Origin: Mesorhizobium atlanticum
Lineage (GTDB): Bacteria > Pseudomonadota > Alphaproteobacteria > Rhizobiales > Rhizobiaceae
NCBI RefSeq assembly: GCF_003289965.1
Contig: NZ_QMBQ01000005.1
Span: 558,001 to 622,000, forward strand
Length of the DNA: 64,000 nucleotides
Direction: 5' to 3'
Each line of letters opens with the position of its first letter. The first letter of the stretch is position 1. This document shows, piece by piece, positions 62,469 through 64,000 of this stretch. The position numbers and the translations under genes are program-made. A model generated the notes under the pieces. It worked only from the letters and a program-made list of their open reading frames with translations. It did no database searches and was not told where the DNA came from.

Positions 62469-63263
62469 ATGAGCGGTTTGGCCGGTCGCAATTCAGAAAC
62501 GCGCGCCGTCGTTACAGGCGGCGCGCAGGGCATCGGCTTCGCGGTTGCCGAGGCGCTTGCCGATGAAGGCTGCCGCGCGCTGGCGTTGATCGGCCGTTCG
62601 CAGGAGAAGGGCGACAAGGCGGTGGCAGTGCTGAAGAAAAACGGCGTCGACGCCATCTTCATCAGCGCCGATGTCGCCAAGGTCGCCGACTGCAAGCGCG
62701 CGGTGGCGACGGCCATCACTCATTTCGGAACCTTGAACGCCCTGGTCAACGCCGCCGCCACTTCGGCGCGCGGCTCGCTGGTGGAGACCACCGAGGAGCT
62801 GTTCGACCAGATCTTCGACACCAATGTGCGCGGCCCCTTCTTCCTGATGCAGGGCCTTGTCGCGCATCTGCTCGAACGCAAGGCGCCGGGCTCGATCGTC
62901 AACGTGCTGTCGATGTCGGCGCATGCCGGCCAGTCCTTCCTCACGCCCTATTCGACCAGCAAGGGCGCGCTGATGACGCTGACCAAGAATGTCGCCAGCG
63001 CCTATCGGAAGAACCGCATCCGCTGCAACGCCGTGCTGCCGGGATGGATGGACACCGAGGGCGAGGCGATCGTGCAGAAGAAGTGGCACGGAGCGTCGGA
63101 TGACTGGCTGGAAAAAGCAGAGGCCGCGCAGCCAATGGGCCAGCTGGTGAAGCCGGCGCAGCTTGCGCGGCTGATCACCTACATGCTGAGCCCGCAGGCC
63201 GGCGTCATGACCGGATCTCTGGTCGACTACGATCAGAACATAGCCGGCGTGATCGGGGAGTAG
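62469..63263 (+). CDS. Short-chain dehydrogenase/reductase
   Basis: 264 aa from ATG 62469 (ACAGGAGCACGGCG upstream). Classical SDR: VTGGAQGIGFAVAEAL (TGxxxGIG), LVNAAATSARG (NNAG position), catalytic Ser in VLSMSAHAG and YSTSKGALM (YxxxK), and the PG-motif NAVLPGWMDTEG. The substrate is probably a polyol or inositol-derived intermediate from its context. Last gene of the catabolic operon; the aroG-type promoter begins at its stop codon. Confidence 0.92.
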   Translation: MSGLAGRNSETRAVVTGGAQGIGFAVAEALADEGCRALALIGRSQEKGDKAVAVLKKNGVDAIFISADVAKVADCKRAVATAITHFGTLNALVNAAATSARGSLVETTEELFDQIFDTNVRGPFFLMQGLVAHLLERKAPGSIVNVLSMSAHAGQSFLTPYSTSKGALMTLTKNVASAYRKNRIRCNAVLPGWMDTEGEAIVQKKWHGASDDWLEKAEAAQPMGQLVKPAQLARLITYMLSPQAGVMTGSLVDYDQNIAGVIGE

Positions 63264-63290
63264 TGACAACCGCCCTCGCATCGACTATAT
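63262..63290 (+). promoter_or_regulatory. Promoter of the DAHP synthase leader
   Basis: AGTGAC (63262-63267), exactly 17 bases, CTATAT (63285-63290). The -10 box is identical to the rhizobial consensus and the -35 box matches four of six. A start seven to eight bases downstream falls on or next to the ATG at 63298, implying a leaderless leader-peptide mRNA. Confidence 0.7.
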
Positions 63291-63297
63291 GAGCCGC

Positions 63298-63375
63298 ATG
63301 ATCCACCTGACCGCCTCGTTTTGGTACTTTAGCTACGGTAGCTCGCTGGCGGCGGGAGGATTGCGCTCGATCTGA
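63298..63375 (+). CDS. Aromatic leader peptide of DAHP synthase (attenuation peptide)
   Basis: 25 aa from ATG 63298 to TGA 63375; an in-frame ATG at 63289 would add three residues but lies within the -10 box. Residues 8-13 are Phe-Trp-Tyr-Phe-Ser-Tyr, five aromatic codons of six covering all three aromatic amino acids. No ribosome-binding site precedes it, which fits initiation at the mRNA 5' end, as known for the trpL leader of Sinorhizobium. The downstream gene makes the precursor of exactly these amino acids, and its codons overlap the antiterminator strand. Confidence 0.8.
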
Positions 63376-63427
63376 AAACTCCAGATCAAAATCCGACAAG
63401 CCGCCAGACCTGGCGGCTTTTTTGTTT
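63346..63427 (+). promoter_or_regulatory. Transcription attenuator of the DAHP synthase gene
   Basis: The terminator is AAGCCGCCA (63398-63406)/TGGCGGCTT (63411-63419), loop GACC, then TTTTTTGTTT (T-tract 63418-63427). CTGGCGGC (63346-63353), inside the leader peptide, is the exact complement of GCCGCCAG (63400-63407), the 5' arm of the terminator, so the two structures exclude each other. A further hairpin, GATCTG (63369-63374)/CAGATC (63382-63387), overlaps the leader stop codon. A ribosome stalled at the aromatic codons (63319-63336) would leave the antiterminator strand free. Confidence 0.85.
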
Positions 63428-63463
63428 CAGCCGGCAGGTCTCCTAAACCAGGAGCAGAAAGCC

Positions 63464-64000
63464 GTGTTGACCACCACAGACGACCTTAGGGTCACCGAAA
63501 TCAGAGCCTTGAGCACGCCCGACGAGGTGATGCGCGAGATACCGCGCTCGCTCACTGCGACGCGCACCGTTGCTGCTTCGCGCAACGCCATCCATTCGAT
63601 CCTCACGGGGGCCGACGATCGACTGCTTGTCATCGTCGGCCCTTGCTCCATCCACGATCCGGTCGCAGCCGTTGACTATGCCAGCCGTCTGGCGGCGCTG
63701 CGCGAGACCCTGGCCGACCGGCTCGAGATCGTCATGCGCGTCTATTTTGAGAAGCCGCGCACAACGGTCGGCTGGAAGGGCCTGATCAACGATCCCGACC
63801 TCGACGGCAGCTTCAACATCGAGAAGGGCCTGCGCATGGCGCGCAATGTGCTCTCGGCGGTCAACAATCTCGGCCTGCCGGCGGCAACCGAATTCCTCGA
63901 CATGACGATCCCGCAATACATCGCCGATCTCGTCGCCTGGGGCGCCATCGGTGCGCGCACCACCGAAAGCCAGATCCATCGCGAGCTGGCGTCCGGCCTG
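63464..64000 (+). CDS. aroG: 3-deoxy-7-phosphoheptulonate synthase, class I (3' part missing)
   Basis: The first 179 codons are present from GTG 63464, with AGGAG nine bases upstream; the gene leaves the right edge. It joins PEP and erythrose-4-phosphate, the entry to the shikimate pathway. [20 protein letters not shown] holds the metal-binding Cys; [26 protein letters not shown] and the later ATEFLD are the class I (AroF/G/H) blocks. Which aromatic amino acid inhibits it cannot be told. Regulated by the attenuator just upstream. Confidence 0.95.

Follow-up and report, generated by a model that had tools for sequence, protein, structure and literature searches.

A predicted ribosome-mediated attenuator with phenylalanine, tyrosine and tryptophan codons in one short leader peptide upstream of the type I DAHP synthase gene aroG

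The window analysed here is a whole stretch of 64 kb of DNA, corresponding to positions 558001-622000 of contig C24 in a genome of 6.53 Mb. According to the sequence and the list of open reading frames (ORFs), a short-chain dehydrogenase gene (ending at 63263) is followed by a promoter-like pair of hexamers, a leader ORF, a terminator and aroG (Table 1). The part of aroG located in the window matched TIGR00034 with 283.6 bits (cut-off 173.2), and its product is the entry enzyme of the pathway making the three amino acids that the leader is proposed to sense. A CTATAT box, a 25-codon ORF containing Phe-Trp-Tyr-Phe-Ser-Tyr, a strong terminator before the DAHP synthase gene and eight bases of the peptide gene complementary to the 5′ arm of this terminator had been named in the original prediction, and all four were found; CTGGCGGC is exactly complementary to GCCGCCAG, a match equalled in 1 of 100 sequences obtained by shuffling the upstream part. 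The CTATAT hexamer is separated from the leader ATG by 7 nt. An alternative in-frame ATG at 63289 would give an ORF of 28 codons but overlaps the -10 box, and the leader start was assigned to the second ATG (63298), the one common to relatives.

Table 1. Features of the aroG leader region (positions in the window)
Feature	Position	Strand	Basis or remark
Promoter-like site	63262..63290	+	AGTGAC 63262-63267 (or GTGACA 63263-63268) and CTATAT 63285-63290
Leader peptide ORF, 25 codons plus stop, probably leaderless	63298..63375	+	Stop 63373-63375; shared start and promoter spacing in relatives
Regulatory codons Phe8 Trp9 Tyr10 Phe11 Ser12 Tyr13 (TTT TGG TAC TTT AGC TAC)	63319..63336	+	Sequence; aromatic core in relatives
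Segment 1, predicted partner of segment 2 (protector) in free RNA	63300..63315	+	Folding; relatives
Segment 2, CTGGCGGC, 5′ half of antiterminator, within ORF	63346..63353	+	Complementarity; relatives
Second antiterminator helix, 5′ half, GGATT	63358..63362	+	Partner AATCC 63390-63394
Small hairpin over stop codon, inside antiterminator	63369..63387	+	Predicted from window sequence alone
Second antiterminator helix, 3′ half, AATCC	63390..63394	+	A-U to G-C on both sides in 3 sequences
Segment 3, GCCGCCAG, pairing with segment 2 (antiterminator) or segment 4 (terminator)	63400..63407	+	Complementarity; relatives
Intrinsic terminator with T run	63398..63423	+	Hairpin 63398-63419, 9 pairs, then T's
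AGGAG, likely ribosome binding site of aroG	63450..63454	+	Read from sequence
aroG, type I DAHP synthase, 363 aa, GTG start 63464, continuing beyond window end	63464..64000	+	Profile match; relatives

The locus was compared with aroG loci of related genomes. With the source genome counted in each case, the AroG search gave a match in 56 of 61 genomes at the level of the genus, 4 of 101 of the family, 22 of 199 of the order and 225 of 398 of the phylum; one of the 56 genus matches, a truncated gene (G042), was left out. In the named genome records the best 80 of 589 candidates were used, and the nearest aroG loci among these were from Mesorhizobium (91-95% identity). With a looser detector, leader and terminator were found before aroG in 67 of 68 assessed best-match loci of the genome-collection search (source locus included) and in 58 of 78 of the named records, both lists being weighted toward near relatives; L091 and L099 were left out of the latter count because the contig end was too near, and L176 of the genome collection was unscored in this count, but a leader had been listed for it in a separate scan. 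The leader-bearing named loci include Mesorhizobium, Bradyrhizobium, Devosia, Xanthomonas, Rhodanobacter, Burkholderia, Massilia and others, and Methylotenera, Thauera, Azoarcus, Dechloromonas, Nitrosomonas and Vibrionaceae are among the 20 of 78 without the element. Within the genus, all 25 further loci carry leader and terminator. From the phylum search 40 more distant stretches were picked; 12 possess the element (five MSAKFYFYFF-like as in the Burkholderia loci, one Xanthomonas-like, four of a third type with YFWFS and two others) and 28 do not, and no leader was seen in those of the 40 whose AroG N-terminus resembles that of E. coli AroG. Eleven of 135 distinct leader candidates failed the strict terminator rule and were excluded from the pairing, codon-spacing, covariation and promoter counts, so that 124 remained; the looser rule of the presence counts accepted some of these failures as positive (L045, L050, L061, L062, L069, L112). 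Near-identical rows were removed from the pairing, codon-spacing, alignment, segment 1:2 and promoter counts.

On a tree of 96 AroG proteins from these loci, leader presence required 7 changes as compared to a mean of 18.6 with shuffled labels, and none of 500 shuffles was as low. Therefore, the leader seems to be inherited mostly with the aroG gene, with some gains or losses. Several loci deviate from the common pattern. L112, L114 and L117 are leader-bearing aroG loci placed by the tree among relatives that lack the leader, which may point to independent gains, losses or transfer (L112 by the loose terminator rule only). In L080 (Candidatus Burkholderia humilis) the peptide diverges from its relatives past the aromatic run and its frame remains open over a much greater length, as would be expected of a decaying switch. 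The terminator of L025, L133, L138 and L149 begins 117-126 nt before aroG instead of the usual ~65 nt, with ~60 nt extra in between, and L077, L094 and L034, from the Acetobacteraceae/Rhizobium branch of AroG, have only a few aromatic codons in a cluster (core RFY), and their antiterminator pairs weakly.

A -35-like hexamer (four variants allowed) was present in all 79 distinct upstream regions from Hyphomicrobiales, and 68 of them contained CTATA in addition; among these 68 the hexamers are spaced by 16 nt in 67, and 7-8 nt separate the -10 hexamer from the ATG in 66, while in 200 shuffled controls at most 1 of 79 upstream regions had both hexamers. For three Bradyrhizobium-type loci with two in-frame ATGs, the more upstream ATG was used as reference point. 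Sequence identity in the Hyphomicrobiales upstreams amounts to 0.28 from -60 to -46 and to 0.53-0.55 from -34 to the ATG. A simple E. coli-type sigma-70 scan reported no promoter in 62700-64000. The rhizobial promoter consensus is CTTGAC-N17-CTATAT, and the leader hexamers match it better than the E. coli one. Since the putative promoter lies at a fixed distance from the ATG throughout the Hyphomicrobiales, the transcript is likely to be leaderless and to start on or next to 63298, and the leaderless layout of the original prediction is retained with a predicted start site. It would be a feature of one branch, as Burkholderia-type loci have a TATAAA ~40 nt before the leader ATG. The trpE leader of the host, MNMRSNKTIWWWGC (L220, about 1230-1480 of the reverse complement), also displays a leaderless-type layout, in which CTATGG precedes one of three in-frame ATGs by 8 nt.

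A variant in which the attenuator works as described but possesses a 5′ leader, with the true transcription start upstream of CTATAT, is unlikely, yet it deserves some weight. The promoter is a prediction to which the empty E. coli-type scan lends nothing, the mechanism needs no leaderless start, and the Burkholderia-type TATAAA would itself leave room for a leader. On the other hand, the constant 7-8 nt between -10 box and ATG in Hyphomicrobiales speaks against it, as do the similar arrangement in the host trpE leader and two reports on Sinorhizobium meliloti, according to which the trpL RNA starts at its AUG (PMC10117765, PMC7298713).

Translation of the leader ORF is suggested by the manner in which its length changes. 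Among 71 leaders from Hyphomicrobiales, the ORF comprises 72, 75, 78, 81 or 84 nt in 31, 8, 20, 8 and 4 cases, respectively, and the GGCGG core of segment 2 is in one frame relative to the ATG in all 71. Between the stop codon and the terminator core, spacers of all lengths from 24 to 28 nt occur. Changes by threes are expected of a translated ORF. The aromatic residues are kept in relatives while their order and neighbours shift. The occurrence of Phe, Trp and Tyr codons in one peptide, as originally predicted, extends to 107 of 124 leaders, the other 17 having Phe and Tyr only, so that one peptide may sense the full set of aromatic amino acids. The start of the last aromatic codon lies 14 nt upstream of the GGCGG antiterminator core in 89 of the 124, which is roughly how far a stalled ribosome extends beyond its A site.

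Codon choice within the leaders was compared with that in the aroG genes of the same groups, the rows being related and the counts thus overstating independence: Phe is encoded by TTT in 66 of 73 leader codons of the Mesorhizobium group, 61 of 68 of other alphas and 128 of 168 of the rest, versus 16 of 164, 6 of 135 and 51 of 289 in aroG. TTT thus accounts for ~90% of Phe codons in alpha leaders as against 4-10% in aroG (63319-63321 and 63328-63330 are examples in the window). For Tyr no consistent shift was observed, the share of TAT in leaders versus aroG being 37/108 versus 81/156 (Mesorhizobium group), 33/68 versus 55/120 (other alphas) and 54/111 versus 84/282 (rest). The TTT bias could be explained if decoding of this wobble codon is slow and makes stalling sharper, or by avoidance of structure.

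In 96 of 124 leaders, no more than 5 of 100 shuffles equalled the pairing of segments 2 and 3; in 10 leaders, 20 or more did. Concerted triples of segments 2/3/4 were counted in 123 of the 124 leaders, with related rows and a segment 2 search that favours pairing: at offset +5 they read T-A-T in 97, A-T-A in 2 and C-G-C in 2, and at offset -1 C-G-C in 66 and T-A-T in 14. The corresponding 2:3 pair is present in 105 of 123 leaders at offset +5 (absent in 18) and in 85 at offset -1 (absent in 38). The GGCGG/CCGCC core is almost invariant, and covariation is limited to few flanking positions and few clades. In an alignment of 48 sequences from Hyphomicrobiales, in which the antiterminator was scored as a structure specified by us, it pairs 97.2% of cells compared to 19-53% when slid by 1-3 columns. 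Its second helix, GGATT/AATCC, changes from A-U to G-C in 3 of the 48 rows, and the terminator changes from G-C to A-U in 4 rows. The covariation score of the antiterminator was reached by 2 of 500 shuffles and its number of cells changed on both sides (3) by 13 of 500, whereas the number of pairs so changed was reached by 285 of 500. RNAalifold, applied to the same alignment, chose the terminator and a small other helix and not the antiterminator. Pairing of segments 1 and 2 is strong in 16 of 17 pairs of the Mesorhizobium group, 10 of 18 of other alphas and 8 of 34 of beta, gamma and other leaders; therefore, a ribosome covering segment 2 may matter more in the clades outside the Mesorhizobium group.

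In a simple folding model the free leader folds into 1:2 plus terminator (-48.9 kcal/mol). Placing a ribosome over codon 8 makes the antiterminator the most stable fold, even when the whole leader is present (-36.7). If the ribosome is placed at codon 13, the antiterminator is the most stable fold for RNA reaching to segment 3 (-30.8), and the full leader prefers 1:2 plus terminator (-43.6). From these folds it would follow that stalling at codons 8-11 is the effective signal and that shortage of any one of Phe, Trp and Tyr suffices. In the same model, RNA that extends no further than segment 3 is most stable in the antiterminator form, whether no ribosome is present (-36.6) or one sits at the stop codon (-21.2). 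Termination should therefore depend on the order of folding, with 1:2 arising early, or on segment 4 ousting segment 2.

The original prediction of a ribosome-mediated attenuator with all parts visible gained support from the comparison with relatives, i.e. from conservation, in-frame changes, pairing and controls. The element is very probably a transcription attenuator of aroG that reads the charging of tRNA-Phe, tRNA-Tyr and tRNA-Trp via one short peptide. Like attenuators of the trpL and pheL kind, it has a short ORF with clustered codons for end products, the translation of which is suggested by the in-frame length changes, and an intrinsic terminator between this ORF and the structural gene, and the antiterminator, which RNAalifold did not choose, excludes the terminator according to sequence and prediction. 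Its parts, their conservation and their mutual exclusivity can be read from the sequences compared; start site, translation, stalling and the response of read-through we infer as follows. RNA polymerase would start on or beside the ATG at 63298, as the promoter spacing suggests. If the aromatic tRNAs are charged, the ribosome would pass codons 8-13, upon which either 1:2 forms or the ribosome covers segment 2, so that the 3:4 terminator could form and transcription would end near 63420. If any one aromatic tRNA is short, the ribosome would stall at codons 8-11 (or 13) and hide segment 1, leaving segment 2 free for segment 3, and transcription would continue into aroG.

Control of aroG by a regulator other than the ribosome, i.e. 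a protein or small molecule acting on the leader RNA with the peptide being incidental, is very improbable. Such a regulator would be compatible with hairpins that are strong and conserved, with the lack of Trp in 17 of 124 leaders and with the patchy 1:2 pairing beyond Mesorhizobium. It would, however, leave unexplained why insertions and deletions in the leader ORF are in frame, why the last aromatic codon stands 14 nt from the antiterminator core in 89 of 124 leaders and why aromatic residues are retained while order and neighbours change, and no listed Rfam family was found at gathering score in the window region or in 13 fetched loci.

The strict rule demanded that an ORF of 15-36 codons begin with ATG, contain a stretch of 8 residues of which 4 or more are aromatic, and have a terminator downstream. 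On both strands of the 64 kb window it was satisfied once, by the aroG leader, and the larger fetched loci (874,760 bases, both strands) contained no match beyond the aroG leader; the looser detector used on the relatives was positive in none of 601 control windows. That the hairpin merely terminates the short-chain dehydrogenase gene, the end of which is just 34 nt 5′ of the ORF, and that the aromatic-rich ORF is due to chance, is scarcely credible in view of these control windows, of ORF lengths varying in frame and of an ORF and terminator kept before aroG although identity upstream of -46 is random (0.28).

The source genome also encodes a type II DAHP synthase (contig C13), upstream of which such a leader was sought and none was found, and the type I enzyme therefore looks like the regulated one. 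A second PF00793 match (contig C25) is probably a KDO8P synthase.

A more extensive proposal is that a pan-aromatic attenuator accompanies type I DAHP synthase genes across Alpha-, Beta- and some Gammaproteobacteria, responds as an OR gate to shortage of Phe, Tyr or Trp, replaces repression of the TyrR/TrpR type, is tuned by its strong preference for TTT and gives rise, in rhizobia, to a leaderless mini-mRNA and a peptide that also act in trans. As a joint claim this is rather doubtful. If the attenuator works as predicted, the entry of carbon into the aromatic pathway of many Pseudomonadota would be set by one translation-read switch for three products. In E. coli, aroF, aroG and aroH are repressed separately, and the switch would be a simple counterpart to this arrangement. 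Moreover, it would add a conserved RNA element absent from Rfam 15, and it would offer a natural setting for testing how the choice of TTT codons affects stalling and whether rnTrpL is the only leaderless leader RNA with an action in trans.

Searches with Rfam gave no riboswitch, T-box, leader or other listed family at gathering score in 62500-64000 (E up to 1), nor any listed family at gathering score in 13 fetched loci (E up to 0.1). Phe_leader (RF01859) scored 25.1 bits and remained below its gathering cut-off of 55. The Bradyrhizobium sRNA BjrC1505 (19 bits, gathering 50) was dropped as a candidate; four Bradyrhizobium-type loci gave no match to it at E up to 0.1. In the literature searched, which was mostly non-subscription and had the survey of proteobacterial attenuators by Vitreschak et al. 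2004 outside its scope, no DAHP synthase attenuator of Pseudomonadota was found save a hypothesis on E. coli aroF, and apart from this remark none is described in the parts seen of PMC10117765, PMC7298713, PMC2965389, PMC8632094 and PMC6337395. In the searchable literature, a leader peptide for three amino acids upstream of type I aroG seems to be undescribed, as do its broad distribution and its codon bias.

The mechanism itself is of a known kind. The pheL leader uses aromatic codons and attenuates an aromatic pathway gene; the aroG leader has both traits in common with it but is outside that family (RF01859) and contains codons for three amino acids. Sensing of several amino acids of one pathway by one leader peptide is known from thrL and ilvL, which differ from the aroG leader in pathway and genes. 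A uORF attenuator of a DAHP synthase gene has likewise been proposed for uORFC-13-1 before aroF of Acholeplasma, which is likened to the aroG leader here by its description; the part seen of that report mentions Acholeplasma and environmental sequences only (PMC8632094). According to the same report, attenuation of E. coli aroF was hypothesised in 1980 (Camakaris 1980, via PMC8632094), and this proposed attenuation of a type I DAHP synthase gene in Pseudomonadota is comparable as an idea. The trp attenuator rnTrpL/peTrpL of Sinorhizobium meliloti, as described in PMC7298713 and PMC10117765, resembles the aroG leader in a leaderless ORF, which is likely for the latter, in the ribosome-dependent choice between terminator and antiterminator and in a small terminated RNA, which the aroG leader is expected to release. 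For rnTrpL/peTrpL, trans action has been reported (PMC7298713, PMC10117765). It controls trpE(G), whereas the element analysed here precedes aroG and carries Phe, Tyr and Trp codons in one peptide.
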